Source of the DNA: an uncultured Lachnospiraceae bacterium
GTDB taxonomy: Bacteria > Bacillota > Clostridia > Lachnospirales > Lachnospiraceae
Length of the DNA: 64,000 nt
Direction: 5' to 3'
Assembly: GCA_902779575.1 (NCBI GenBank)
Contig: CACZBW010000002.1
Span: 108,367-172,366, forward strand
This document shows positions 4,331 to 18,965 of this stretch, in pieces (position 1 is the stretch's first letter; every line of letters begins with the position of its first letter). The notes beneath the pieces were generated by a model. It saw only the letters and a program-made list of their open reading frames with translations. It was not told where the DNA came from and searched no databases. The translations under genes were made by a program, and so were the position numbers.

Positions 4331-5515
4331 TTAAAGTGCCATCCGGTAGATATTTGCCATATCCTCTTCGTAGAGAACCTTCGCACTTCCCTGTTTCCCG
4401 CCGCAGGCTTCGCGGCAGCTGCGGGCCATCTCAAGGATCTGTTCTTCGGTCGGGGTGATGCCCAGTTCCCGCATATTGGTTGGCATGCCGATACTCCGAT
4501 AGAATTCCTCCATCTTTGCAATCCCCTCCAGCGCAATTTGCTCGTCTCCCTGTCCCTCATCCTTTACGCCCATGACTTTAATGGCGTAGCGGACGAAACG
4601 CGGCATACACTCTTTGTATACATAACGCGCCCAGCTGGGCCAGATCGCGGCCAGGCCTGCGCCGTGCGTCACGTCAAACATGCCGCCCATCTCATGCTCA
4701 AGCATATGAGTCGCGAAGTCGCCGCCGTCGTTGCCGCAGCCTGTCAGATCGTTGTGCGCCAGGGAGCTCGCCCACATCACTTCCGCGCGGGCTTCGTAAT
4801 TCTGCGGATCGGCGTGAAGGATCTTCGCGTATTTCATAACTGTGCGAAGAACCGCCTCCGCGATCTCATCCGTCAGTTCCATGTTGCCGCCCTGCGTGAA
4901 ATAACGCTCCATCGTGTGCATCATAATATCCGCACAGCCGGACTCGGTCTGATAATCCGGCAGCGTTTTTGTCAGATCCGGATTCATCACGGCAAAGCGG
5001 GGGCGTGCCAGATCATCGTTGTAGGCGCGCTTTTCTCCGGTCAGTTCATTCGTGATGACACAGCTGTTGCTCATCTCACTGCCTGCAGCCGCGATCGTCA
5101 GAATGCTTGCGACCGGGAAACAGCCCACGGCACTGCGTTTGCCCTGGAAAAGCTCCCACACATCGTGATCCGGATCCGCCAGCGCATAGGCAATTGCCTT
5201 TGCCGAATCAATCACGGATCCGCCGCCGACAGCAAGGAGGAAATCAATATCGTTCTGTTTTGCGAGTTCGATGCCTTCACGCACTTTTCCCAGATGAGGG
5301 TTGGGGACTACTCCGCCAAGTTCAACGTGGAAAATACCTGCCTCATCAAGTGATTTTACGACACGGCCGATCAGTCCCGACTTCAGGGCGCTCGATCCGC
5401 CGTAATGAACCAGGACCCGGCTGCCACCGCACGCGCGGACCAGGGCGCCTGCCTGTTTCTCTGTATCTTTGCCGAAGACAACCTTTGTCGGTGCAAAGTA
5501 AGTGAATCCAAACAT
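4331..5515 (-). CDS. Iron-containing (butanol-type) alcohol dehydrogenase
   Basis: A 394-residue group III alcohol dehydrogenase that interconverts aldehydes or ketones and alcohols with NAD(P)H. The nucleotide site is GGGSVIDSAKAIA; the metal ligands are the Asp and His in CADIMMHTMERYF and the two His in HMLEHEMGGMFDVTHGAGLA, matching the YqhD/BdhA branch. A frame extends 34 codons upstream to 5617, but CAGGAGGTTTTAAGA precedes the ATG at 5515, and a promoter lies at 5589-5617 inside that extension, so the shorter start is right. It likely disposes of reducing equivalents or aldehydes in fermentation. Confidence 0.93.
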   Translation of the reverse strand: MFGFTYFAPTKVVFGKDTEKQAGALVRACGGSRVLVHYGGSSALKSGLIGRVVKSLDEAGIFHVELGGVVPNPHLGKVREGIELAKQNDIDFLLAVGGGSVIDSAKAIAYALADPDHDVWELFQGKRSAVGCFPVASILTIAAAGSEMSNSCVITNELTGEKRAYNDDLARPRFAVMNPDLTKTLPDYQTESGCADIMMHTMERYFTQGGNMELTDEIAEAVLRTVMKYAKILHADPQNYEARAEVMWASSLAHNDLTGCGNDGGDFATHMLEHEMGGMFDVTHGAGLAAIWPSWARYVYKECMPRFVRYAIKVMGVKDEGQGDEQIALEGIAKMEEFYRSIGMPTNMRELGITPTEEQILEMARSCREACGGKQGSAKVLYEEDMANIYRMAL

Positions 5516-5588
5516 TCTTAAAACCTCCTGTGTTTCTTCGCCTTCTTTCCGGTTATCGTCATTATGCGCGTCTGCAGATGTCAGTAAA

Positions 5589-5617
5589 ACTATAGCATAT
5601 TCTTTTTTTGAGAACAA
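5589..5617 (-). promoter_or_regulatory. Sigma-A-type promoter of the alcohol dehydrogenase
   Basis: TTGTTC (5612-5617) and TATAGT (5589-5594) are 17 bases apart on the minus strand, about 75 bases before the ATG. The intergenic 5516-5843 otherwise holds only the opposite-facing promoter at 5777-5805. Confidence 0.6.
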
Positions 5618-5776
5618 TGATCCCTCTCATGCCTTCTTATCCTGACTGCTGTTTTCTGTACGCCGTCGGAGCGCAGTCCATGTGCCTGCGGAAGTACCCG
5701 CTTTTATCCGGTCCACACATTCGTCAGCAGCGTATTCTATATGCCAGAGGAAGTACCTGGAAAAGCCGGGGCGGCC

Positions 5777-5805
5777 TTGCAAATACCTGAAAAATCCGTT
5801 ATCGT
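5777..5805 (+). promoter_or_regulatory. Sigma-A-type promoter of the SH3-domain gene
   Basis: TTGCAA (5777-5782), 17-base spacer, TATCGT (5800-5805), ending about 40 bases before the ATG at 5844, with GAAAGGAGC between as ribosome site. Confidence 0.5.
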
Positions 5806-5843
5806 ATGAAGAAATAGAATGATGAAAGGAGCTTTTATCAGCT

Positions 5844-6365
5844 ATGATGAAAAAAAGTATCAGACTGTTTATCCTGACACTGACGGGACTTGGGCTTTTT
5901 GGAAATATCTGCCGTGCGGAGGTCATTCCTGCCCATGGCCCGGGGCAGATCGGTTACCGGGCCGAAATACTGTGCAGCAGCCTGACTGTAAGAAAAGACG
6001 GCAATGCAGATTCCGATGCAGTGAAGACGCTGCATTATGGAGACTTTCTGATTGTGGATAATATACAGTCAGACGGATGGGTAAAATGTTTTCTTGGCGA
6101 CGATGTCAACGGAGGACCTGAAGGCTGGATCAATACGGATTACATTATCATTGACCCGGCCTGGTACCGGACGGATGACACAACGCCGGTATACGCCTGG
6201 AATGATACGAAGGCGCCGAAAGTTGCGCTGCTGGACAAGGATACCACCCTGCCGATTATAAAGGATGAAGGGGACTGGTTCATCGTCAGCCTGCGGGGCG
6301 CAGCGGGATGGGTTCTCAAAAAAGACGCCGACCGTGTTGATACGACAGCCGAAGAGAACAATTAA
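5844..6365 (+). CDS. Secreted protein with two SH3-like domains
   Basis: A 173-residue exported protein. Residues 1-24 form a signal peptide (MMKKS, a hydrophobic core LFILTLTGLGLFG, then CRA-E). Two bacterial SH3 repeats follow: roughly 38-105 (LTVRKDGNADSDAVKTLHYGD, GWVKC, EGWINTDYI) and 110-160 (VYAWNDTKAPKVALLDKDT, DWFIVSLRGAAGWVLKKD). Such SH3 domains usually bind peptidoglycan peptides or sit on cell-wall proteins; no catalytic domain is attached, so it is probably a binding or wall-sensing protein. It stands alone between a divergent gene and a bidirectional terminator. Confidence 0.8.
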   Translation: MMKKSIRLFILTLTGLGLFGNICRAEVIPAHGPGQIGYRAEILCSSLTVRKDGNADSDAVKTLHYGDFLIVDNIQSDGWVKCFLGDDVNGGPEGWINTDYIIIDPAWYRTDDTTPVYAWNDTKAPKVALLDKDTTLPIIKDEGDWFIVSLRGAAGWVLKKDADRVDTTAEENN

Positions 6366-6422
6366 GGAAAGAATTTATACGCTGTTTTTCAGGCCAATAC
6401 CTGATGGCCAGCCGGACTTAGT

Positions 6423-6464
6423 AAAAGCTGAACGTTTCGCAGGAATTACGAACGTTCAGCTTTT
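6423..6464. terminator. Bidirectional terminator between SH3 and amidohydrolase genes
   Basis: AAAAGCTGAACGTT (6423-6436) and AACGTTCAGCTTTT (6451-6464) are perfectly complementary, 14 bp, with T-rich flanks on both strands. It lies between two convergent genes. Confidence 0.85.
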
Positions 6465-6473
6465 CATTTTTAT

Positions 6474-7667
6474 TTATTTCAAGGGCAGACCAAGGTCCTC
6501 CGCGCCAAGCATCGCTGCCGCAGCGTAGAGCTGCGCTGCCTGCCGCATCGCCTGATCATCGGTATGAAAACGGGGCCGGTGAAGTTCTTCTACTGCTTCT
6601 CCTTCTGCCCTGCTGCCGACCCAGAAAAACCAGGAAGGAACATATTCGCCGTACAATGCGAAATCTTCACTGGCAAGTGAGGGCCGCGCATCTGTTATCC
6701 GGCCGGGAGCCGCCGTATCCGCCGCCTTCTTCGCACCTGCAGCCAAATCCGGAAGGTTCCTGACTGTCGGAATCTGCTTTTCCCAGATTATCTCCCATTC
6801 ACATTCATATGCGTCAGCTGTATTCCTGACGATCGCTTCCGTCCTGGAAATACTGCGTTCAAGAGCCACGTCTGAAAGTGACCGGATCGTCGCCTTCATC
6901 TCAACCTGATTCGCGACCAGATTTACGGGACTTCCTCCCTCGATATAGTTGATCGACAAAACAACTGAATCCAGCGGGCTCGTATTTCTGCTGACAATCG
7001 TCTGCAGCGACTGGATCACCGCTGCAGCACAGACAATCGGATCAACATTGAGATGCGGCATGGAACCGTGGCCGCCGCGGCCTTTGATCCGGATGGTCAT
7101 ATTCCGTTTGGCGGCCATGAGCGCTCCATCATGAAGAACTATTTTGCCGGATTCGACGGACGGCCAGTTATGAATGCCGAATATCGCACGGGGATGGATG
7201 CGGTCAAACAGTCCTGCGTCAATCAGCGCTCCTGCACCGGTCGTCCCCTCTTCCGCCGGCTGAAAGATCAGATCCACAGTGTTCCTGAGCAGTCCCTGCG
7301 TCTTCAGTCTGGCAAGAATCAGTACCGCTCCGAGAAGCGACGCCGTATGAAAATCATGGCCGCATGCGTGCATAACGCCCTCGCTGCGGGATTTCCAGGG
7401 ACTTTCATACATCTCTGTCTGCGGAAGTGCGTCAATATCCGCCCGCAGGGCAACTTCCGTTCCGCTCCCGTCTCCGGCAATCCTTGCCAGTACGCCGGTG
7501 GGGGTGCCGGTCTTAAGAAACTCCGCACAGGGCAGTTTTTCCAGAAATGTCCGGATCACACCGCTTGTTCTGAACTCTTCCTTCGAAAGCTCCGGATGCA
7601 TATGGAGATCTCTTTTGATTTGAAGAATCTGCTCAAACTCATCCGGAAGAAGTGTTATTCCATCCAT
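6474..7667 (-). CDS. M20 family amidohydrolase (hippurate hydrolase / N-acyl amino acid deacylase type)
   Basis: A 397-residue metallopeptidase-family amidohydrolase that removes acyl groups from N-acyl amino acids. Metal ligands are visible in MHACGHDFHTASLLGA, the PAEEGTTGAGALID block with the catalytic Glu pair, the IFGIHNWP His, and HRPRFHTDD near the C-terminus. The lid or dimerisation insert (GRGGHGSMPHLNVDPI) is complete, and length is usual. AGAGAGGATCATT precedes the ATG at 7667. It appears to be monocistronic. The exact acyl amino acid is not predictable; a role in salvage of acyl amino acids or peptides is likely. Confidence 0.92.
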   Translation of the reverse strand: MDGITLLPDEFEQILQIKRDLHMHPELSKEEFRTSGVIRTFLEKLPCAEFLKTGTPTGVLARIAGDGSGTEVALRADIDALPQTEMYESPWKSRSEGVMHACGHDFHTASLLGAVLILARLKTQGLLRNTVDLIFQPAEEGTTGAGALIDAGLFDRIHPRAIFGIHNWPSVESGKIVLHDGALMAAKRNMTIRIKGRGGHGSMPHLNVDPIVCAAAVIQSLQTIVSRNTSPLDSVVLSINYIEGGSPVNLVANQVEMKATIRSLSDVALERSISRTEAIVRNTADAYECEWEIIWEKQIPTVRNLPDLAAGAKKAADTAAPGRITDARPSLASEDFALYGEYVPSWFFWVGSRAEGEAVEELHRPRFHTDDQAMRQAAQLYAAAAMLGAEDLGLPLK

Positions 7668-7995
7668 AATGATCCTCTCTATACGTTCTTACAGTAAAAT
7701 CTATAATTCCCGCAGATCGCCGGCAGTAAATACCATCACCGGATACAATGCTCCTCCGCCGCTGTTCCTATCATAACACAAACTCCTGACCAATACCTTT
7801 TCAGCAGAGTATTTTGTCTCCAACTATTTTTCCGGATATGCTGACTCTGAGCGGGTGTATATGGTAGAATAATATTGTTTAATGATCCTTCCTTTGCATG
7901 ACGGAAGGATTATCATATGCATAAAGATACAATGCCATTAGCGGGAACAGAAAACTTCGTCCGGACCTGTGCTTTTTCAAAGGAGGAAACGAAAA
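7668..7995. other. Intergenic region with weak promoter and leader hairpin
   Basis: 328 bases between divergent genes. On the plus strand CTGACT, 18 bases, TAGAAT could be a weak promoter ending near 7870. An 8-bp stem ATCCTTCC/GGAAGGAT (7885-7892, 7903-7910) follows in the leader. I see no further gene. Confidence 0.35.
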
Positions 7996-8991
7996 ATGCT
8001 CAAAACGATCGGTATAATCATGGTCACTCTCTTGATAACTGTCGTTAAGCTGCCCTCTACGGCGTTTGCCGGCGAGGAAAAACCGTCGGTCTCCGAGGCA
8101 GGAGAAACCGGGGAGGAGACGACAGATCTGCAGACGCAGGGTCAGGAGAAGAGTGACGAGCAGGCGGGTCTTGAGAAGCTGCTTGCGCAGGTTAAGGAAA
8201 TTCTGCCGATCATTCTCGGGATGAACGGCGATGATCCCTTAAGCAATAAAGAGCGGATCGCTGTTCAGGTTAAAAGATTTGTGAAGAAACCCGGACAGGT
8301 TTTAGGTGATTTCTGGGATTCTGTTTTTGGAACCGGAGCCGATGGGATTTCAAAGGAGAATGTCCCCGAAAAAAAAGGGAAAGTGAATTTTGTCATGAGC
8401 CTTCCTGATCCGGTTAAGATGCCTGACACTTATTCTGTCTCCTACCATCGTCTCGACAAAAAGAAAAAAGAGGTCATAACGCTTCTCGAACGTGACTCGG
8501 ATGGAAATATCCATTTTGTTGACGGGAAAACCGAGCAGGTATTTGTCAAAACGGATGAAGGATTCCGCATGTACCCTGTCCGGGCAGGCCAGACCGGCTT
8601 CGGCAGATGGAACGGTGTAGTATTAAGCGCAAGAAGTGTGCGTGAAAAAACTGCTCCCTTCTGGGACTGTGCAGATCAGACTTTTATCAAATGGCTTGGC
8701 GTTGACCTCACGGAAAAGACAGAATATCTCGGACGTCCGTGCGGTCTTTATCACGCGCAGCCTGGGACCATTACTTTTACCTATCAGTGCGATATGGTCA
8801 TCGACGATGAGACCGGGATCTGCCTCTGCTATACTGCGGATAAACTGCTTAAAGGCGCAACATACAATATAACGGAAGATCATACGATTGAGATCGGGAT
8901 CGGCGATTACAGGATCGGCAGTGACGGGATGAAATTCTACTGTACAGAATTTAAGACCGAAGACGTTTCCTTCGATCTGCCGGAACTGTAA
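7996..8991 (+). CDS. Unrecognised secreted protein upstream of the cyclase
   Basis: A 331-residue protein with a signal peptide MLKTIGIIMVTLLITVV...STAFA cleaved before GEEK. It is followed by an acidic Glu/Thr/Gln-rich linker (about residues 25-60) and a globular remainder ending VSFDLPEL. AAAGGAGGAAACGAAAA directly before the ATG at 7996 rules out the longer frame from 7969. No membrane span after the signal, no lipobox, two cysteine-bearing segments near WDCADQ and GICLCY. I do not recognise the family. It precedes the cyclase by 79 bases on the same strand without a visible terminator, so it may report an outside condition to that enzyme, but this is speculation. Confidence 0.75.
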   Translation: MLKTIGIIMVTLLITVVKLPSTAFAGEEKPSVSEAGETGEETTDLQTQGQEKSDEQAGLEKLLAQVKEILPIILGMNGDDPLSNKERIAVQVKRFVKKPGQVLGDFWDSVFGTGADGISKENVPEKKGKVNFVMSLPDPVKMPDTYSVSYHRLDKKKKEVITLLERDSDGNIHFVDGKTEQVFVKTDEGFRMYPVRAGQTGFGRWNGVVLSARSVREKTAPFWDCADQTFIKWLGVDLTEKTEYLGRPCGLYHAQPGTITFTYQCDMVIDDETGICLCYTADKLLKGATYNITEDHTIEIGIGDYRIGSDGMKFYCTEFKTEDVSFDLPEL

Positions 8992-9070
8992 AGCTCCGGG
9001 CCGAATAAACAAACTTGCATTTGAAAGCTGACGGGAATCATCCGCCATCTGTGCTGAAAGCGGTAATCAT

Positions 9071-10417
9071 ATGGAAAAACCCAGCCTCGCCTACAGAGAC
9101 CTCAATGATAATCAGATGAGGTTTATCTTCTCGACAATTGAAGATGCCCTGTGTATCACGAACGGAAAAGGCCACATTCTGTATGTCAATCCTGCGGCGG
9201 AAGAGCTTCTGGGCGTTTCAAAAAAAGGGATCCAGAAAAAACGTCTGCATGAAGTCATACCTTTTGTGGAACGGAATGATGAATTCATACAGACCTTCAT
9301 TGATACCTTTGATAAGAAAACCAGATGCCGTCATAAACTGGTTGATTACGAAAACCTCAACGGCAAAGTACTGAAGCTTCGGATCAGCATGTCTTATTCG
9401 GATTACTTCGGCGGCATTTTCGTGGTTCTGCTCAGTGACCTGACCGAACTGTTCAGGGTTAATTCCGCCTTCTCGCGCTACACTTCTCCACAGATCGCCG
9501 AGTATGTGCTGACGACCGAAGAAGGGGAGCGCCAGGGCGGCAAATCCAGGGATGTCACCATCCTAATGAGCGATCTGCGCGGTTTCACAGCAATCAGCGC
9601 AAGACTCGACCCAATGCAGCTGATTCATCTGCTGAACAATTATTTCGAAAAAATGGTCGAAATAATCGAGAAGTACAGCGGAACGGTCATCGAATTCCTG
9701 GGTGACGGGATCTTTGTCGTATTCGGCGCTCCCGCTGATGATCCGCTTCATCCATCTCACGCTGTTCACTGTGCCGTCGAAATGCAGAATAAGATGGAAG
9801 AGGTCAATGCCTGGAACCGGGGCGAGGGTCTCCCGGAGCTGGAAATGGGCATCGGTATCCACTCGGGTCTGTCTGTCGTCGGAAACATCGGTTCGATTCA
9901 GAAAATGAAATACGGATGTATAGGGGAAACCGTCAATCTGGCCGGCCGTATCGAAAGTCTGACAATCGGAGGACAGGTCCTGATTTCTTCATCTGTCCGG
10001 GACCGGATTACCGAGCATCTCCGGATCGGATCGAAACAGACCTTCATGCCCAAGGGCTCGCAGTCAGATATCATTGTGCTGGAAGTTACTGCCATTGGAT
10101 CCACAGTGCTGACCCAGTCAGAGGATCCTGGTTTCCCGCATGAAATAGCTCCTCCCTGGCCGCAGCTGCAGTTTTCTCTTCTGAACGGAAAAACTGTCGA
10201 AATGGTCACTTACGAAGGTGTTCTGACTGCCTTCTCCGGGGATCATCGTTTCCTGTGGCTGAAGACGGCAGCCGAACTGAGGCTGCGCCGGAATGTCCTT
10301 CTGAAGGTCGGAAACGGCCTTTACGCGAAAATTCTTTCCAGGGACAAGGACACTTATATTCTTTGTCTCACCCCGAAACCGGACAACCTGGAAGAGCTAC
10401 TGCGCTCACTGTCGTAA
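9071..10417 (+). CDS. PAS domain-linked class III nucleotidyl cyclase, guanylate-type selectivity residue
   Basis: A 448-residue soluble cyclase. Residues about 12-125 form a PAS sensor (AEELLGVSKKGIQKK, then the VVLLSDLTE strand). The catalytic domain is at about 160-335. Metal-binding Asp are D168 (MSDLRGF) and D212 (FLGDG); the transition-state pair N289 and R293 is present (TVNLAGRIES), so it should be active. The position that is Lys in adenylate cyclases is Glu208 (IEFLGD), as in guanylate cyclases, and the second base-contact position is Gly282. Residues 340-448 are a beta-rich tail of unknown role. No membrane span. cGMP is therefore a serious candidate product. The ribosome site is weak. 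Confidence 0.88.
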   Translation: MEKPSLAYRDLNDNQMRFIFSTIEDALCITNGKGHILYVNPAAEELLGVSKKGIQKKRLHEVIPFVERNDEFIQTFIDTFDKKTRCRHKLVDYENLNGKVLKLRISMSYSDYFGGIFVVLLSDLTELFRVNSAFSRYTSPQIAEYVLTTEEGERQGGKSRDVTILMSDLRGFTAISARLDPMQLIHLLNNYFEKMVEIIEKYSGTVIEFLGDGIFVVFGAPADDPLHPSHAVHCAVEMQNKMEEVNAWNRGEGLPELEMGIGIHSGLSVVGNIGSIQKMKYGCIGETVNLAGRIESLTIGGQVLISSSVRDRITEHLRIGSKQTFMPKGSQSDIIVLEVTAIGSTVLTQSEDPGFPHEIAPPWPQLQFSLLNGKTVEMVTYEGVLTAFSGDHRFLWLKTAAELRLRRNVLLKVGNGLYAKILSRDKDTYILCLTPKPDNLEELLRSLS

Positions 10418-10484
10418 AGCGGTATCCCGGAGCGTACATACTCAGTAAAGAAATACAGCCGGCAAGGGGAATCTCATCGGAATC

Positions 10485-10520
10485 AAAAAAGGAGTGTGCG
10501 ATATGCCACACTCCTTTTTT
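10485..10520. terminator. Bidirectional terminator between cyclase and CNB gene
   Basis: AAAAAAGGAGTGTG and CACACTCCTTTTTT pair perfectly over 14 bp around an 8-base loop, giving U-runs in both directions between two convergent genes. Confidence 0.9.
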
Positions 10521-10575
10521 CATCTTATTGGTTTTTCTTTATACGGATTTCTCTGTCCGGTATCTGTCGTTCACA

Positions 10576-11460
10576 TTATTCGCCGCAGATTTCCGCGATC
10601 TGGTCGCAGACCTTCAGATAATCCCTGGTCAGATTCCTCAGCCGGCGGGAAAGATGGTCTGTAATCATCCAGACCTTCATCGGATTCTGCTGGAACAGTT
10701 CTGCCAGATCATCCGGTGTAATCGTCTCGATGGTTGTGTCCTCAAGCGCCACTACTGTAGCACTGCGCGGTTCACCGGCAACCATGCCCATCTCACCGAA
10801 AAACTGATTCGTAAACAGCTCCGCAATCTTCTTTTCGTCAACTGTTCCGTATCCGGTATAGACCCCGACACTTCCCCAGTGAATGTCATACATGCTGTTT
10901 GCAGTCACGCCTTCTCTGCAGATAACCGTTCCGGCCTTATACTCATTGACCTTTTTGGCGAAACCGTTTCTATGATCACTGCTCTGCAGCGTATCGACAC
11001 TGACCTGAGACAGCTTCTTCAGATTTTTCTTGTAGGTTCTGTAAGTTTCAATCCTTTCTACGATAGCACTGCCGCCCTCCACTTTTGCTCTTTCAAGATC
11101 TTCCAGCGCATTCTCATAGGTTTCGGTCATGCTTCTGATCCGTGATCCAATATATTTCATCAGCTCATAGATCTTTTCCGGCTGCTCTTTATAATACTGC
11201 GGAATCTGATCACCTGGGATCTCAAGAACACGCGTGTTGTCTTCTGCCGCAATAACCGTAGCGCTGTGCGGAATACCGCCCTCAAGCAGGGCCATCTCTC
11301 CGAAATAGGCGCCTTCCTTCAGCGTTGCAAGAGGAATCTGCTTTTCAGAATCATTCGTCACAAAGACATCCGCCGAACCATTTATAATCTGATAAAAAAA
11401 CGGATCATTCTCACCCTGTCTGATCATGACATCGCCGCTGTTAAATACCTTTTCCTGCAT
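10576..11460 (-). CDS. Protein with two cyclic nucleotide-binding domains, no HTH
   Basis: A 294-residue cytoplasmic protein made of two CNB domains joined by a helical linker. Domain 1 (about 2-110) has YFGEMALLEGGIPHSATVIA; the Arg that normally holds the cyclic phosphate is His here. Domain 2 (about 170-280) has FFGEMGMVAGEPRSATVVA and keeps that Arg. No DNA-binding helix-turn-helix or enzyme domain is attached, unlike Crp. GGGTGGAAATC precedes the ATG at 11460, so the frame extending to 11505 is rejected. It faces the cyclase gene tail to tail and is the obvious candidate effector, perhaps acting through a partner protein. Confidence 0.88.
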   Translation of the reverse strand: MQEKVFNSGDVMIRQGENDPFFYQIINGSADVFVTNDSEKQIPLATLKEGAYFGEMALLEGGIPHSATVIAAEDNTRVLEIPGDQIPQYYKEQPEKIYELMKYIGSRIRSMTETYENALEDLERAKVEGGSAIVERIETYRTYKKNLKKLSQVSVDTLQSSDHRNGFAKKVNEYKAGTVICREGVTANSMYDIHWGSVGVYTGYGTVDEKKIAELFTNQFFGEMGMVAGEPRSATVVALEDTTIETITPDDLAELFQQNPMKVWMITDHLSRRLRNLTRDYLKVCDQIAEICGE

Positions 11461-11595
11461 GATTTCCACCCTTTCTTCTGTGAATCTGCCGTTTTTCTGA
11501 AACACAAACGGTCAAAATATAAAGACCTTCGAAACAAAAACGATCAAAGCCGAAAGACTTCCGATAAAGAGTTCCCGGCTAATCTTAATATTAAA

Positions 11596-11624
11596 AATAT
11601 ATCAGTACTTAATTGAAATATCAA
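11596..11624 (-). promoter_or_regulatory. Promoter of the CNB-domain gene
   Basis: TTGATA (11619-11624), 17 bases, TATATT (11596-11601) on the minus strand. It gives a leader of about 130 bases before the ATG at 11460, long enough for post-transcriptional control, though I see no known riboswitch in it. Confidence 0.55.
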
Positions 11625-11698
11625 TCATTTTCAGCAGGATCTTTCCGCTTCTCCCATCATCAGCGCTCTGCTGCAGCTACGCCGGAAGGCTCCTGTTG

Positions 11699-12724
11699 CT
11701 AATAGCGATTATGAACCTTTTCCGCAAAGCACAGGACATCTTTAATCTGCACTGCCGTCCCGTCATCCAGGACCGCTGTGCCGCTCATCCTGCCGAAGAC
11801 CTGATGCTGATCCGACACGATCAGTTTAAAATCAAGGTCAGCCGCCCTGTCAAGAACCGGAACAAAATCCATCTCGAACCTTCCGTCAGAAGAGGTAAAC
11901 TTCCACGGATCCATATATCCGCTGTCGGGGATATGGAATGTCACATCGTCCAGTTTATGCACTTTTCCATTATAAAAGAGTACATTCTCAGACGCCGCTT
12001 TCGTATTTCCAAACCCATATCCGATATTGAATCCAAAGCTGCTGCCGTCAATATCCGCATTTCCGGAACCCCAGTACCATGTATTGTCATAGGTCCAGAC
12101 GCCTCTCCCCCAGTCAAGGGTTCCGAAATCCTTCTCCGGATTGAACTCATATCGCTTCCCATCATACATTACATACCCTGAAGCACGCATGCAGTTGATC
12201 TTCTGGTTGTAATAGAAGGCATGTCTCTGATCCCACGGCGTAGCGATTACCATGGAGTCCATATCAGGCTGCCGCAGCGTAATATCACACTTAAGATTTT
12301 TTCCCTCATGGAAATTCCGGAAGAGACACTGGATTCTCCTGCTGCCGTTTCCAGCAGAAAAACGCATGTGCAGACGTTTATCTTTATACTCCGTTATTCC
12401 ATCTGAAGAATCTTCAGGAAGATGCAGTTTTCCCATCGGAAAGGCATTCAGCACGGTTTCCGTATGCTCCCACGCTTTTTCGCCGAAAAGCAGCAAAGAA
12501 GCAGACTGCAGGCCGATATATCCGTCATCGGAAATCGTAAAAGCCACCCCGAACTGATCACTCAGCACAAGGTAATAATCCCATTCCTTGATGCGCCATT
12601 TCGGTGCCTTTATCATATCCCGGCGGTATTTCTGCACCATTCTCCGGGACCAGCCCGGTTCTCTTAATTCGCCATTTTCATCAAGCAGAAACTGTTCCGT
12701 TATGACTTCATGATTTCTACCCAT
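11699..12724 (-). CDS. DUF2804 family protein
   Basis: A 341-residue protein with the DUF2804 pattern: N-terminal EPGWSRRMVQKYRRDMI, the mid-protein WRIKEWDYYLVL, and the conserved DWGRGVWTYDNTWYWGSGNA and GFNIGYGFGNTKAASEN segments. It is predicted soluble and beta-rich. The family has no assigned biochemical role; its overall look resembles lipocalin-like hydrolases such as carotenoid or lipid-acting AttH proteins, which is an inference. GGGAGGAGGCTTT lies before the ATG at 12724, so the frame reaching 12802 is shortened. It is last in a run of four minus-strand genes (EamA transporter, esterase, small protein). Confidence 0.85.
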   Translation of the reverse strand: MGRNHEVITEQFLLDENGELREPGWSRRMVQKYRRDMIKAPKWRIKEWDYYLVLSDQFGVAFTISDDGYIGLQSASLLLFGEKAWEHTETVLNAFPMGKLHLPEDSSDGITEYKDKRLHMRFSAGNGSRRIQCLFRNFHEGKNLKCDITLRQPDMDSMVIATPWDQRHAFYYNQKINCMRASGYVMYDGKRYEFNPEKDFGTLDWGRGVWTYDNTWYWGSGNADIDGSSFGFNIGYGFGNTKAASENVLFYNGKVHKLDDVTFHIPDSGYMDPWKFTSSDGRFEMDFVPVLDRAADLDFKLIVSDQHQVFGRMSGTAVLDDGTAVQIKDVLCFAEKVHNRY

Positions 12725-12798
12725 AAAGCCTCCTCCCATTTCATATAAAAAACCGTGCCGACAGTTTTTATATCCGTCAGAATTTCTCATGATACTGT

Positions 12799-13215
12799 TC
12801 ATAAAACCATCAGCAGAGTACCTGCTCCAATCAGGATGCAGCCGAGAATCGACTTTGCCGTAAACTCCTCATGAAGAAAAATAAAAGCGAGCACAAGAGT
12901 AATAATTACGCTCAGCTTATCAATGGGAACAACCTTTGACGCTTCTCCCATCTGCAGCGCTTTATAATAACAGAGCCACGACGCTCCTGTTGCGAGACCG
13001 GACAGAATAAGAAAGATCCAGCTCTTCCGGCTGATGGAGTGTATTCCTCCCTGCTGATTTGTCAGGAAAACCATGCCCCAGGCCATTATGACAACAACTA
13101 TGGTCCGAATCGCGGTTGCCAGATTGGAATTAACGCCCTCAATACCGACTTTGGCAAGAATCGAAGTAAGAGCAGCAAATACAGCAGAACCTAATGCAAA
13201 CCAGAACCACATCAT
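12799..13215 (-). CDS. EamA-family half-size transporter
   Basis: A 138-residue membrane protein of the drug/metabolite transporter superfamily with a single EamA repeat, where the usual proteins have two. Four or five helices are visible, with MMWFWFALGSAVFAALTSILAK at the start, GASWLCYYKALQMGEASKV in the middle and TAKSILGCILIGAGTLLMVL at the end. Half-size members probably work as dimers. Substrate unknown. It starts 15 bases after the end of the esterase gene and so shares its message. Confidence 0.88.
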   Translation of the reverse strand: MMWFWFALGSAVFAALTSILAKVGIEGVNSNLATAIRTIVVVIMAWGMVFLTNQQGGIHSISRKSWIFLILSGLATGASWLCYYKALQMGEASKVVPIDKLSVIITLVLAFIFLHEEFTAKSILGCILIGAGTLLMVL

Positions 13216-13230
13216 CTATACTTTCGCCCC

Positions 13231-14064
13231 CTATCGCTCCTCAATCCAGGAAAAGAACTTATCCAGTCCTTTATTCTCTTCCCTGGTCTCCAGGAACATT
13301 CCTGCCGTGTACCATGAATGCGTATTCTTCTTATCCGTTACACTATATAATTCGCAGACAATTCCCAGTTCTTCTGCCCTTGCGGCAAAATCCTCCGCAC
13401 AGGCGTATTCAATCAGCCCGTCATGTCTGCTCTGGATCAGCAGCATGGGAATCGAACTTTTTCCCATCAGCATTACCGGTTCACCGTTTCGCCTGTCAAA
13501 GCCTTCCCGGAAAAGCTGCCCCAGCAGCAATCTGACCGTCAGAGACTGATCCTCTCTGAAACTGTAGGGTCCGCCGGAACCGATAAAGCCAATGACATTT
13601 GATATATCCACCCTGTACTTTTCCTGAACCTTCCTGCAATAGCACATGATAGATCCCAGATGTGCCCCCGCCGACGGACCGGCAATTATGATCTTTGATA
13701 TATCTGTCCCTTTTTCCTTCAAATAGCTGACTGCGGAATTATACGCCGCACAGACATCTTTAATCTGGCAGGGATATTTGTATCCGGGAGATAACCGGTA
13801 GCCCAGCGAAAAAAACCTGTACCCCTGATCACAGACGCACTGTCCGACAAAATCAAAAAACCTTGGATTACCGGCATTCCAGCCCCCTCCATGAATCCAG
13901 ACAATAATCTTATCGCTGACAATCTTCTCCGGCTCATAATACAGGAAGTACTGTTCCTTATTCTTCCCATAGGACACCATTTCAGGCTTATACTTTCTCT
14001 TTACCTGAAACATCTTTCTGTACAGCCCGAAATAGCTCAGGCTTTCTCTCAAAGAATCATTCAT
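13231..14064 (-). CDS. Alpha/beta-hydrolase, carboxylesterase/lipase type
   Basis: A 277-residue cytoplasmic esterase. The oxyanion-hole motif IWVHGGGWNAG and the nucleophile elbow IIAGPSAGAHLGS identify the hormone-sensitive-lipase-like branch; the acid is probably in IQSRHDGLIEY and the base His in KNTHSWYTAGM. The frame can be read from a TTG at 14115, but the ATG at 14064 has GGAGG eleven bases upstream and is taken. No signal peptide, so it would act on intracellular or diffusible esters. It sits between a small unknown gene and the EamA gene in the same orientation. Confidence 0.88.
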   Translation of the reverse strand: MNDSLRESLSYFGLYRKMFQVKRKYKPEMVSYGKNKEQYFLYYEPEKIVSDKIIVWIHGGGWNAGNPRFFDFVGQCVCDQGYRFFSLGYRLSPGYKYPCQIKDVCAAYNSAVSYLKEKGTDISKIIIAGPSAGAHLGSIMCYCRKVQEKYRVDISNVIGFIGSGGPYSFREDQSLTVRLLLGQLFREGFDRRNGEPVMLMGKSSIPMLLIQSRHDGLIEYACAEDFAARAEELGIVCELYSVTDKKNTHSWYTAGMFLETREENKGLDKFFSWIEER

Positions 14065-14131
14065 TCCTAAAAGAACCTCCGGAATTCTTCTTTCTTCATT
14101 TGCTTTCTTCTCCAATTATTACCAATTTACA

Positions 14132-14437
14132 TCATTCTTCCGGCAGATCATTTTCAAAAATAAAAGGCTTATCTTTTCTGTACCGGATATTCATCGTTCT
14201 TCCCGCAAGAGACTGCGGGTCCGGATCATCGAGAGGATGAAACACATACCATCCGTTCCGTCTTGTACCATCTGCGTCATATACAATTTCATATGCATTG
14301 TAATCGGCTTCCCGGGGGCCCATTTTTGTTCTTATTGTCGCCCTTTCGCACTTCCCCGTAAAAACAGCGGTGGTGGATTTCCATTTTCGCATATCCCTGT
14401 GATGCGTCAGGCGCACAAAAAAGCCAAAGAGATTCAT
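14132..14437 (-). CDS. Small conserved-looking hypothetical protein
   Basis: A 101-residue soluble protein beginning MNLFGFFVRLTHHRDMRKWK and ending PFIFENDLPEE. It alternates short hydrophobic strands and charged turns (YNAYEIVYDADGTRRNGWYVFHP, TMNIRYRKDKPFIF), suggesting a small beta barrel. I do not recognise a family. GGGAGGGG lies before the ATG at 14437, so the 24-codon extension to 14509 is not used. It is the first of a possible four-gene unit that runs through the esterase and EamA transporter to DUF2804. Confidence 0.6.
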   Translation of the reverse strand: MNLFGFFVRLTHHRDMRKWKSTTAVFTGKCERATIRTKMGPREADYNAYEIVYDADGTRRNGWYVFHPLDDPDPQSLAGRTMNIRYRKDKPFIFENDLPEE

Positions 14438-14482
14438 CTCAATACCCCTCCCTGATTCTCTGCGGTTTCTGTGTATTAATAT

Positions 14483-14502
14483 AGCCGGGACTATGCCCGG
14501 CT
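14483..14502 (-). terminator. Short hairpin after the PEP-binding protein gene
   Basis: AGCCGGG (14483-14489) and CCCGGCT (14496-14502) form a 7-bp stem 42 bases beyond the stop at 14544. The following bases are A/T-rich but not a pure U-run, so termination may be partial. Confidence 0.4.
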
Positions 14503-14543
14503 TCAACATTCCTATATGAAAAAGTTTAAGGGTTTCCGACTTC

Positions 14544-17147
14544 TCAGCCGCTGGTATCCGTTTCCGGGCTGCAGCGAAGAATGGTCTTTTCCTGTTTCAG
14601 ATCATGATACAGCTTACATCCTTTTCCTTCGGTATTTAATACTCTGACTATATTCTCAACAGGATTCTCTCCGTCAGCTTCCAGAAACTCTGCCGTAATA
14701 TCGGGAAAACAGCCAATCATCGCCGGCCGCCAGATTCTTGTACTTTCTCCGGAAAAGACCGCGGCATAGAGAATATCGGCCTCCACGAGATCCTGGAAAA
14801 AATGACTCCCATAGGATAGTTCGGGATTATATCCGATCGTTTTTTCTTCCAGCTCGCAGATCACTTCAAACTCGCTTATGTCCGCAAATACGGTGGGGAC
14901 TCCAAGTTCGGGGGAGGATGTGCCGATCCTGCCCGGGGCAATCAGCATCATCTTCTTCCCTTTTCCCCTGTATGACCAGTTTACCTTCCGAATAAAATCC
15001 GCGATCTCCGGTTTGCGGGCATAGGGCATCTGATAGTAGGATACCGGGTCAATATACACAATTCTGTCGATCGAAATGCTTCTGGACAAGCCCATTGATG
15101 AGCCGTTCGTCTCCAGAATGATACTGTCTTCAGGTATATCATCGGGTATCCGGGCGGTTCCGGTATCCTTAAATGCCTGGAGCGGCCTGCACTGGAGCAG
15201 ATTGACGCAGTATTCCCCATCATCTGCCAGATTGATCGTAAATTCAGTATCCACCGGATGATGATATTCCTTCTCCAGAAGACGCAGGATCCTGCCCATC
15301 TGCTCCATCAGCTTCTGATTTCTTACCAGGCCCCTGCAGGAAATAAAGCGGATATCACGCACGATTCCCTGCTCTCTCAGCCTGCTTTCAACCTCGTAAT
15401 CATGTTCCAGCAGAATATTCTTAAGGTATGATGGCAGATGCGCTTCCACTTTTCCAAGTTCCATTCTGGTGAGGCAGTGCTGCTTCACATCCATTGCCTC
15501 GATCTTCTTCTGCGAAAACTGATGTTTTTCCGCTATTGTCGTGGAAGGCGTCGCTTCAGGCCGGTTCAGGGCGACCAGCCTTGGATAGGATCCTTCCGTA
15601 CGGTCAACCGCGGAGGTCCCCAGGCCCATGACAAGCCGGAGCATGCCGGCCGATGGATCGATGTCTGACAGAAACCGGTATGGGCTGAAAGAATAGCCTA
15701 CTCCGGCCGCGCACGGCATATAGTAAGCGCCATAGTAGGAACCGGACACTCTCTGAATAAGCAGCGCCATCTGTTCATCCTTCTGATCCAGCCCCCTGCG
15801 CTTACGATAGTCCAGAGCGGAGAGGCTCATTGTACTGGCATAAACCGTACGGATGGCATCTTCGAATTCCTGCAGGCGCTCCTCCATCGTCCCTCTGTTG
15901 GCACAGAAAACCGACTCATATTTCCCGGCAAAGGCATTGTCAAACCCATCCTCCAGAATACTGCTCGAACGGACAATATACGGGTCCTGTCCGTAGTACT
16001 CCAGTATACTCCGGAAGCGGTCTTTCATATCTGCGGAAAACGCACCGTGTTTCAGATGATCCGCAAATTCTTCCGCCAGTGTAAAGTATTCATCGCTTGT
16101 CCGCTGGCGAATCCGGAGATCCCAGAAACCATTGTCCACAATATAGGTATAATAGACGTCGGATCCCACAAAAAAGGAATCATGCGGTTCCAGGATATCA
16201 TCCATCTCCGGTTCCAGGTTCCGGACAATTGCCCTGGATAACAGCATTCCGCACGCCTTTCCTCCAACCATCCCTGTACCGATCATGTGTTTGCGCACAT
16301 TAAAATAATCTTCCGGTTTAAAATGCTTCTCTACGAGCTCCCTCATCTTCTCATCCCGGGTCATCATGATACGGCACATGGTCCGGCACATTTCTTTCAT
16401 ATCCATGCCGCTGTCGTACAGCAGTTTCGCGGAATTGAAAAAGCGGTCCCAGGAATCAATGTACTGCTCCTCCCCGGATCTCTTAATGGTTCCCAGAAGC
16501 TGATAAAACCGGCTTGCGCGCACACCATCCAGGACAGGCTTAAAAGAGTTGTCCTTTTTATTATAGATATGCGGCAGAAACATTGTTTCCGAATCTCTCT
16601 CCCAGACCTTCAGAGGACGCACGTATACCCCGTTCCGGTCTGAATAGACATCCAGAAACAGCTGTGTGGTATTTAATATCTTTTCTACTGCATGAAAAGA
16701 GTGTTTTCCCCTGATGATCGGAAAGAAGGCCACGGTATCCAGGATGAATAAGAACGGACAGGTTACCCGGAAAAAGTTTCCCATCATAAGGTCTGTAGCC
16801 CAGGCAGTCTGCAGATCCGACAGGCAGTCAAAAACGTAAAAAGCGTCCCTGCCTTCCCTTTCAATTATGTTGTGAATCTCAACCGTAAAGGTTTCGAAGC
16901 GGTGGGATAAAGGAATCTTTACCGTTTTTATTTCACGGCACTCCGGCATCAGAGCTTCATGACTAGCAAAACGGAAATAGATGATATTTCTGTGATCCCG
17001 CTTTGCCTGCTCAATATAAGGCTCCATAAAAAGCCTGAACTCCTCCAGATGCGATACGCGCCAGACCACATTGTCTCCCAGTCTGATGAAATCAAGTGCC
17101 TGATCCATCTCCGGAATTCCGGATTTTATCTTATCGAACGCCGCCAT
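14544..17147 (-). CDS. PEP/pyruvate-binding (PEP synthase N-terminal) protein with degenerate KaiC-like N-terminus
   Basis: An 867-residue cytoplasmic protein. Residues about 1-230 start KIKSGIPEMDQALDFI and run through FYVFDCLSDLQ and a late WERDSETM, echoing KaiC/RecA folds, but no Walker A (GxxxxGKT) is present. From about 285 the PEP-synthase ATP-binding domain follows: GMVGGKACGMLL, PYIVRSSSILEDGFDNAFAG, and LVMGLGTSAVDRTEG. The swivelling phosphohistidine domain and the PEP-binding barrel of true PEP synthase or PPDK are absent. It lies 45 bases after the Amt-PII gene in the same unit, hinting at a link to nitrogen or energy state. GAAGG eight bases before ATG 17147 sets the start over the GTG at 17156. 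Confidence 0.82.
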   Translation of the reverse strand: MAAFDKIKSGIPEMDQALDFIRLGDNVVWRVSHLEEFRLFMEPYIEQAKRDHRNIIYFRFASHEALMPECREIKTVKIPLSHRFETFTVEIHNIIEREGRDAFYVFDCLSDLQTAWATDLMMGNFFRVTCPFLFILDTVAFFPIIRGKHSFHAVEKILNTTQLFLDVYSDRNGVYVRPLKVWERDSETMFLPHIYNKKDNSFKPVLDGVRASRFYQLLGTIKRSGEEQYIDSWDRFFNSAKLLYDSGMDMKEMCRTMCRIMMTRDEKMRELVEKHFKPEDYFNVRKHMIGTGMVGGKACGMLLSRAIVRNLEPEMDDILEPHDSFFVGSDVYYTYIVDNGFWDLRIRQRTSDEYFTLAEEFADHLKHGAFSADMKDRFRSILEYYGQDPYIVRSSSILEDGFDNAFAGKYESVFCANRGTMEERLQEFEDAIRTVYASTMSLSALDYRKRRGLDQKDEQMALLIQRVSGSYYGAYYMPCAAGVGYSFSPYRFLSDIDPSAGMLRLVMGLGTSAVDRTEGSYPRLVALNRPEATPSTTIAEKHQFSQKKIEAMDVKQHCLTRMELGKVEAHLPSYLKNILLEHDYEVESRLREQGIVRDIRFISCRGLVRNQKLMEQMGRILRLLEKEYHHPVDTEFTINLADDGEYCVNLLQCRPLQAFKDTGTARIPDDIPEDSIILETNGSSMGLSRSISIDRIVYIDPVSYYQMPYARKPEIADFIRKVNWSYRGKGKKMMLIAPGRIGTSSPELGVPTVFADISEFEVICELEEKTIGYNPELSYGSHFFQDLVEADILYAAVFSGESTRIWRPAMIGCFPDITAEFLEADGENPVENIVRVLNTEGKGCKLYHDLKQEKTILRCSPETDTSG

Positions 17148-17192
17148 ACCGCTCACCTTCTTTCACTCTGCCTTTTTCAGGAAACTGCTGAT

Positions 17193-18965
17193 TTACTCCA
17201 CATCCTGCAAAGCCGCGAAATCCTCTTCTCCCGTACGGATTTTCACAACCTTGCTTACAGGATAGACAAAGATCTTTCCATCTCCGATTTTCCCGGTATA
17301 AAGGGTTTTCTTCGCAGTTTCAATCACACTTTCCACCGGAATCTGGCTGACTACGACCTCAAGCTTGATCTTCGGAAGCAGCGTCATATCCATCTCAACG
17401 CCGCGGTACATCTGTCCGGCGCCTTTTTCGATTCCGCAGCCTGTCACCTGCGTCACTGTTATGCCCGTTACTCCAAGATCATTCAGGGCTCTCTTGATCT
17501 TGTCATACCTGGACAGCTTTGTTATGATTACGACCTTGCTGATCCCTGTATCAAGGCTTGTCCCTCTTACGCTTTCAGACGCATTCACCACAGGCACCGC
17601 AGCCTTTCTGGCCGCTTCACTCGCTCTCTCATACTCTGAAGTACCCAGGCTGGTATTCTCGTTGGCAACCATCGCGGCGCTCGTCATATCCACGATTGAA
17701 AAACCTGCGTAAGCAGACGCCAGTCCGTGCTCTGTAGCGTCAAGTCCTTCTATTTCTTCTTCCTCCGGTACCCTGAGGCCGACTGTTTTCCGGATGACTG
17801 TAAACGCTATGAAAATCATAACGGTTGTCCAGAGAGCCGTTACTCCCATTCCCACAATCTGTTTGAAAAGCTGTGTGAATCCCCCTCCGTAGAACAGGCC
17901 TTCCCGTATGCCCGCCACAGCAAATCCAGGTGCGGATTCTGTCGCAAACAGACCGACTGCCACTGTACCCCAGATTCCGTTCAGCATATGAACAGCAACC
18001 GCGCCGACCGGATCGTCAACATGTGTGACATAGTCGTTGAACCAGACTCCGAATACCACCAGCAGGCCTGAAACAATTCCGATGACTGCCGCACCGGCGC
18101 AGTCTGTTACATCACATGGAGCCGTTATGGCGACAAGTCCCGCAAGAGATGCGTTCAGGCACAAAGATACGTCAGGCTTTCCATACTTTATCCATGTAAA
18201 GAGCATGCAGACAACCGTAGCCACAGAAGGAGCAACCGTCGTTGTCAGAAATACGGAACCCATCGTCGGAACATCCGTTGCCGCCGCTCCGTTGAATCCA
18301 TACCAGCCCATCCAGAGAATGAAGACGCCCAAAGCTGCAATAACAAGGTTGTGCCCCGGGAAAGCGTTTATTTTTGTGATCTTCCCGCTCTCATCCTTCT
18401 CAAATTTCCCGATTCTCGGCCCCAGCATCCAGGCTCCGATAAAAGCGCAGATTCCGCCGACCATGTGGATACAGTTGGAGCCTGCATAGTCGTGAAAGCC
18501 CCACTGTACAAGGAATCCTCCGCCCCATGTCCAGTGCGCCTCGATCGGATAAATCACGGCGGATATCACTGCGGAATAGATGCAGTAGCTGGAAAACTTT
18601 GTCCTTTCCGCCATCGAACCCGATACAATGGTGGCTGTGGTCGCGCAGAATACCAGGTTGAAGACAAATGCGGAATAGTTGAAGTTTCCGTAATTTGTAA
18701 AAACGTCAAAAGAAAACCCGCCCGCAAAGCCTTTCAGGATGTTTTCCCCCAGCATCAGCGAAGCGCCGCAGATAAACCACATGACTGTACCGATACAGAA
18801 GTCCATCAGGTTCTTCATGATGATATTGCCCGCGTTTTTCGCTCTGGTAAAACCTGCTTCGCACATGGCAAATCCCGCCTGCATCCAGAATACGAAGGCG
18901 GCACCGATCAAAAACCATACCGCAAATATCTCTCCATCCATTGCTTTCAACAATTCCTGTGTCAT
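17193..18965 (-). CDS. amt: Ammonium transporter fused to a PII (GlnK-like) regulatory domain
   Basis: A 590-residue membrane protein. Residues 1-410 are an Amt/Mep channel of about eleven helices with the twin-histidine conduction site H167 and H326 and the conserved Asp159. After a linker, residues 474-585 form a complete PII domain: VVIITKLSRYDKIKRAL, the T-loop MYRGVEMDMTLLPK, TGKIGDGKIFVYPV and KIRTGEE. The T-loop tyrosine that GlnD uridylylates is Met525, so control must be by ADP/ATP/2-oxoglutarate binding alone. Normally GlnK is a separate protein that plugs AmtB; here it is tethered. GAGAAGGAGGGG sets the start. A promoter and leader attenuator lie upstream. Confidence 0.95.
   Translation of the reverse strand: MTQELLKAMDGEIFAVWFLIGAAFVFWMQAGFAMCEAGFTRAKNAGNIIMKNLMDFCIGTVMWFICGASLMLGENILKGFAGGFSFDVFTNYGNFNYSAFVFNLVFCATTATIVSGSMAERTKFSSYCIYSAVISAVIYPIEAHWTWGGGFLVQWGFHDYAGSNCIHMVGGICAFIGAWMLGPRIGKFEKDESGKITKINAFPGHNLVIAALGVFILWMGWYGFNGAAATDVPTMGSVFLTTTVAPSVATVVCMLFTWIKYGKPDVSLCLNASLAGLVAITAPCDVTDCAGAAVIGIVSGLLVVFGVWFNDYVTHVDDPVGAVAVHMLNGIWGTVAVGLFATESAPGFAVAGIREGLFYGGGFTQLFKQIVGMGVTALWTTVMIFIAFTVIRKTVGLRVPEEEEIEGLDATEHGLASAYAGFSIVDMTSAAMVANENTSLGTSEYERASEAARKAAVPVVNASESVRGTSLDTGISKVVIITKLSRYDKIKRALNDLGVTGITVTQVTGCGIEKGAGQMYRGVEMDMTLLPKIKLEVVVSQIPVESVIETAKKTLYTGKIGDGKIFVYPVSKVVKIRTGEEDFAALQDVE

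Follow-up and report, generated by a model that had tools for sequence, protein, structure and literature searches.

In the literature covered, tested cases of bacterial cGMP signaling are very few, namely, those of Synechocystis, Rhodospirillum centenum, and Xanthomonas campestris, and among the literature matches listed, there was no report of cGMP signaling by Clostridia or Lachnospiraceae themselves. Class III cyclases generally form homodimers with two composite sites. Adenylyl cyclases have a conserved Lys and Asp, which in guanylyl cyclases are replaced by Glu and by various residues, respectively, and Cya2 of Synechocystis PCC 6803 has an E-G pair, together with a Tyr before the catalytic Arg that enhances its guanylyl activity (PMC4215837). 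Cya2 receives its input through CHASE2 and a transmembrane part, its E488K form is an adenylate cyclase, and fusions with each form are specific (PMC5995499); according to a review, its selectivity resides in turnover rather than in affinity (PMC4284465). The cGMP-forming class III cyclase XC_0250 of X. campestris, which carries TPRs and in which Leu and Ala replace the Asn/Arg pair, is linked to the gene of a cNBD receptor, XC_0249 (PMC3770947), in which one cNBD is fused to GGDEF. Pycsar systems likewise consist of a class III cyclase and a cNBD protein as a two-gene unit (PycC with PycTIR or PycTM), with the effector on the cNBD protein, and tandem cNBDs are shared by the PKA regulatory subunit and PKG, the latter with a kinase domain.

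The locus studied here lies in a window of 64,000 nucleotides, by which we mean the whole stretch of DNA that was analyzed. Our best reading, to which we assign a probability of about 60% from sequence evidence, is a Cya2-type, PAS-regulated guanylate cyclase that would feed a stand-alone tandem-cNBD receptor. The cyclase gene (9071..10417, + strand; ATG start, 448 aa, stop codon within the coordinates) encodes a PAS domain at residues 15-126 (9113..9448, +; the best stretch over several PAS models, PF00989/PF13426) and a class III cyclase domain at residues 159-319 (9545..10027, +), placed by PF00211 and by alignment with Cya2 and CyaB. The features of class III membership (the PF00211 domain, two metal Asp residues, and the Asn/Arg pair) are all present; the Guanylate_cyc match in Pfam has an E value of 3.4e-28 and 98.9 bits against a cutoff of 21.9, and the assembly, with a completeness of 95.3%, contains no other PF00211 match. 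The C-terminal region (residues 345-448; 10103..10414, +) is β-rich in a low-confidence model. Its strand pattern gave the idea of a PilZ domain, which we rejected, as seven C-terminal pieces returned no PilZ in Pfam at E values up to 10, and a PDB search with a 12-row profile returned three matches, of which the best had an E value of 0.21. AlphaFold2 models of the cyclase, built from a two-row alignment (mean pLDDT of 43.3), and of the cNBD protein, built from a single sequence (38.7), were too poor to use.

On the same strand, a gene for 340 aa (7969..8991, +) ends 79 bases before the cyclase gene and is perhaps cotranscribed with it. Its product has a start that looks like a signal peptide by eye, shows no Pfam or NCBIfam match, and was found in none of the fetched relatives. 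Between the cyclase gene and the convergent cNBD gene lies a terminator-like hairpin of 14 pairs (10485..10520, +), from a scan that overall is not enriched over shuffles (6 hairpins found versus a mean of 4.3), and no RNA family reached its gathering threshold in 5000-15000. Elsewhere in the window, 17193-18965 (−) encodes a 590-aa protein in which a P-II domain is joined to an ammonium transporter, and 14544-17156 (−) encodes an 870-aa protein whose sole Pfam match is a PPDK_N ATP-binding domain at 296-674. A mobile origin of the locus was also considered and rejected: no carrier was seen among the 25 of 691 plasmid matches that were listed or among 9 phage records, with identity reaching at most about 37%.

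The cyclase matched 59 PDB sequences, the best being 6fht (188 bits), a bacteriophytochrome-cyclase fusion, followed by 2w01 (174 bits), which carries the label adenylate cyclase and which we take to be the Cya2 structure, and then by the CyaB structure 3r5g (99 bits). The bacteriophytochrome fusion of Cya2 is described in PMC5995499. The preliminary description had read Glu208 and Gly282 at the two base-contact positions, with both metal Asp residues and the Asn/Arg pair kept, and alignment with the solved Cya2 and CyaB domains agrees with these residues and their numbering: D168 and D212 are the metal Asp residues, E208 (codon 9692..9694, +) takes the first base-contact position, where adenylate cyclases have Lys, G282 (codon 9914..9916, +) takes the second, and N289/R293 form the transition-state pair. 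In this residue-level alignment, named beforehand as one test able to refute the proposal, the selectivity position holds Glu, not Lys, and E208/G282 is the same pair as in the guanylyl cyclase Cya2. Cya2 (2w01, and the catalytic part of 6fht) thus shares with the window cyclase the E-G pair, the metal Asp residues, the Asn/Arg pair, and, as described below, a branch of the tree; an F-x-R-Y motif precedes the catalytic domain in both (FGRY in Cya2, FSRY here). They differ in input, which is PAS in the window cyclase, and beside the catalytic Arg, where the activity-boosting Tyr of Cya2 is replaced by Gly292. A Tyr at this position, an accessory feature, is likewise absent from all other Glu cyclases tabulated, which have G, S, or A. 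Unlike XC_0250, the window cyclase keeps the Asn/Arg pair. Given the E-G pair and the Cya2 precedent, and despite the missing Tyr, GTP is the likeliest, if unproven, substrate, and cGMP is the predicted product.

To place these residues in an evolutionary frame, we searched genome samples of the family (299 genomes, 61 with a match), the genus (19, 10 with a match), and the phylum (398, 135 with a match); in the larger samples (family and phylum), some matches to the cyclase query span the PAS part only, and the selectivity residues were read in the fetched loci, which are roughly the 30 top matches of each search. The resulting 76 rows comprise 47 with K/T (including CyaB), 19 with E/G, 7 with E/N, 1 with E/S, and 2 fragments without these positions. 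Setting aside Cya2 and three duplicate fragments, the E/G rows represent 15 distinct cyclases, including that of the window. A tree built without both selectivity columns has one branch that parts 24 Glu rows (23 from the window's phylum plus Cya2, the only characterized guanylate cyclase in the tree) from 46 Lys rows including CyaB, with support of 100/95; the split is present in 100% of 200 bootstrap trees, and the window cyclase groups with Cya2. Because the split persists without the selectivity columns, Glu marks a clade. Both genes of the pair are under purifying selection: the cyclase has a dN/dS of 0.17 (NG86) or 0.12 (YN00) against a 78.8% identical congener, and the NG86 values between the window and genome G302 are 0.17 for the cyclase and 0.18 for the cNBD gene. 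The supported Glu clade and this selection together argue against Glu208 being a chance substitution. The named genome collection yielded a single relative, 46% identical, in an uncultured Lachnospiraceae metagenome-assembled genome.

Several neighboring groups deserve mention in their own right. In the sister clade of seven E/N cyclases (L041-L047), a TIR-like gene adjoins the cyclase in 7/7 loci (confirmed by Pfam in L041 and L045 and recognized by sequence similarity in the others), and at L045:6691-11853 a GAF-GGDEF gene and a PF01261 TIM-barrel gene come after; these loci could form a separate signaling or defense cluster. CHASE2-type Lys/Thr cyclases from the same bacterial family have the same catalytic Pfam domain as the window cyclase, and some have a cNBD gene nearby, but they carry the Lys/Thr pair, occupy a separate branch, have CHASE2 input (one scanned, L024), and are associated with receptors that carry a fused DUF2225 domain (three scanned) or SpoIIE domain (one scanned). 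Lys/Thr cyclases at L149, L147, L148, and L077 lie near cNBD-DUF2225 genes (Pfam scanned in L121, L123, and L077). At the base-contact position, L124 has Asp and the three scanned genes encode Asn; Asn reads uracil in PycTIR, and the product of these cyclases may merit attention.

Much of the case for a signaling route is carried by a linked gene that the preliminary description, which had suggested such a route from the cyclase, did not include. Convergent with the cyclase gene, a tandem cNBD gene (10576..11460, −) encodes the proposed receptor, whose 294 aa are counted from the ATG at 11460. The mechanical open reading frame runs to a GTG at 11505 (309 aa); we prefer the ATG because the congener's protein starts there and an AGGG-type ribosome site is seen upstream by eye. 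The product has two PF00027 domains and no further Pfam match, so that it has no output domain, and membrane-type domain matches are absent in Pfam from both this protein and the cyclase. The FGE...PRSA cassette is intact in domain B (10684..10944, −), and His replaces the usual phosphate-binding Arg in domain A (11188..11451, −). This replacement is shared by the window and G302, with relatives keeping the Arg in both or nearly both domains, and because domain A is without it, sensing probably falls to domain B. In the PDB, the tandem protein is most similar to cGMP-dependent protein kinases and to regulatory subunits of PKA, a likeness of architecture only, with no kinase domain in the 309-aa reading frame. 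Of the four cNBD matches in the assembly, two lie in the tandem gene, one on contig C20, in a 224-aa CRP-like protein whose cassette, by eye, is without the usual motif, and one on contig C68. The last (L146:247-3907) is a second tandem-type gene of the same genome, cut by the contig end, preceded by a STAS gene and a gene without Pfam match, and adjoining an open reading frame that by eye resembles a transposase.

The ligand of this protein bears on the first alternative, that the enzyme is an adenylate or promiscuous purine cyclase, its Glu/Gly pair not excluding ATP, and that the tandem protein is a CRP-type cAMP receptor. In cNBDs, a position in the last helix reads the base, with Ser128 of CRP for adenine, Asn143 of PycTIR for uracil, and Glu146 of XC_0249 for guanine (PMC11224242). 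Alignment by eye puts Thr here in both domains of the window protein, which differs from XC_0249 in this residue as well as in having two cNBDs and no GGDEF. A Thr is close to the Ser of CRP, so that cAMP would fit the receptor too; the cyclase is without the Tyr to which Cya2 owes enhanced guanylyl activity; and a Ma1120 double variant directed toward guanylyl cyclase residues keeps at least 40% of its adenylyl cyclase activity at pH 9 (PMC4215837). Against this stand the E-G pair and the clade that the enzyme shares with Cya2, which acts little on the other nucleotide and turns into an adenylyl cyclase only with E488K (PMC5995499). The guanylate-type interpretation of the preliminary description is upheld as far as the E-G pair goes, with Gly292 and the receptor's Thr neutral or unfavorable to it, and we regard an adenylate or promiscuous cyclase as unlikely.

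The receptor would permit cGMP without requiring it. In Clr, a Thr-Thr motif binds cAMP as well as cGMP (PMC10127613); we infer that this motif lies at the same place as the window Thr. The R. centenum receptor is also without the XC_0249 diad (PMC3770947). Of the 17 domains of E/G-linked cNBDs (10 proteins), 15 by eye have Thr at the base-contact position and 2 have Ser. Among eight cNBD proteins near Lys cyclases, with the cyclases of G101, G125, and G212 read as Lys, the residue is Asn in six and Asp in one, and one protein, about 5 kb from its cyclase, was unalignable; the weak fragments L084 and L091, both ending before this position, were left out, and one false row of L093 was not counted. 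Descent confounds the contrast between Thr and Asn, as the E/G-linked proteins were all found as homologues of one query. With Thr at the position where PycTIR has Asn, a pyrimidine ligand is disfavored.

Whether the two genes belong together can be judged from their joint occurrence. In the genus (19 genomes), both genes occur in 9 genomes and neither in 8, while one genome (G315) has the cyclase alone and one (G309) the cNBD gene alone (Fisher P = 0.0011, kinship not corrected for). Both genes are on one contig in six of these nine genomes, and the other three have the cyclase on contigs of 3 to 7 kb. In the family sample, 4/5 E/G genomes have a cNBD match at an E value of 1e-15 or better versus 1/294 of the others (P = 7.6e-8, ignoring kinship), at a threshold picked after inspection of the list and with E/G status read only from the stronger cyclase matches. 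At the level of loci, a cNBD gene lies close to 9 of the 15 E/G cyclases, in three gene orders: convergent in the window and G302; upstream on the same strand in G079, G080, G241, G301, G311, and G314; and downstream on the same strand in G304. Single-domain cNBD genes also occur, two in G080 and one in G241. The other six cyclases have none in the available flanks, which are 6 to 8 kb for L006 and G238 and contigs of 3 to 7 kb for G305, G310, G312, and G315. The pair is kept in G302, where tblastn at an E value of 1e-6 found 0/9 of the other window genes compared, in a locus that ends 0.4 kb beyond the cNBD gene.

These data also weigh on a second alternative, in which the guanylate cyclase is rightly identified but the tandem-cNBD protein is not its receptor and the genes adjoin for another reason. 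In a control limited to about 1.5 kb of flank, a cNBD gene was found at 7/15 E/G cyclases and also at 6/45 Lys cyclase loci (all from cyclase searches, which excludes the Lys locus L121, found through a cNBD search), so that a cNBD neighbor is a habit of class III cyclases that is commoner in the Glu clade. L006 and G238, where no cNBD gene is nearby, and G309 and G315, each with one gene in the absence of a match to the other, fit this alternative as well. G309 (locus L112), given as 100% complete, has a tandem cNBD gene and no match to the cyclase query, and its receptor may have another ligand source. An incidental neighborhood accounts poorly, however, for the co-occurrence across the genus and for a pair kept in three gene orders, and we consider it improbable. 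Weaker still is the view of a pyrimidine cyclase in a Pycsar-like antiphage system, for which there are PADLOC matches (cyclase to PycC, E value of 3.4e-21; neighbor to PycTIR, E value of 1.6e-28), but which we disfavor because the general Pfam cyclase model fits better, the PycTIR match covers the cNBD part only (query 7-128, profile 28-143 of 288), the tandem protein has two cNBDs only, with no TIR, transmembrane, or other effector domain, and Thr in place of the uracil-reading Asn (PMC11224242), and the cyclase has a PAS domain and close kinship with Cya2.

In the reading that we prefer, that of a guanylate cyclase with a tandem-cNBD receptor, a signal would meet the PAS domain of the soluble cyclase and be passed by the short coupling helix with the FSRY motif to the catalytic domain. 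The enzyme, which by analogy with its family would work as a homodimer with two composite sites, would then make cGMP, which would bind the adjacent tandem-cNBD protein. Because this protein has no DNA-binding or enzymatic Pfam domain, its output would have to go through a partner protein that it binds. STAS genes, which adjoin the G304 cyclase and the truncated tandem gene on C68, are leads to such partners. Outside the family, the E/S cyclase of G621 (L104:9655-11780) adjoins STAS and 5TMR-SpoIIE-HATPase genes, a neighborhood that hints at partner switching. PF01261 TIM-barrel genes, another lead, adjoin the cyclases of L006, G079, and G241; such a gene was rejected as a fixed third part of the system, since, although it stands beside several relatives, the window genome has only one weak match, on another contig (E value of 3.6e-7). 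A bolder version, which we advance tentatively and consider unlikely as a whole, is a self-contained cGMP circuit in Clostridia of this family, made up of a PAS-gated Cya2-type cyclase and a PKA-R-like tandem receptor that has no output domain and would switch a partner, represented in one genus by two lineages of the pair that differ in gene order.

The similarity to the systems described from Synechocystis and X. campestris extends to the base-contact pair of the cyclase in the former and to a linked cNBD receptor gene, here predicted, in the latter. The receptor architecture, with two cNBDs and no output domain, would differ from those tested. If true, a conserved cyclase-receptor pair in an anaerobic family of Clostridia would extend bacterial cGMP signaling.
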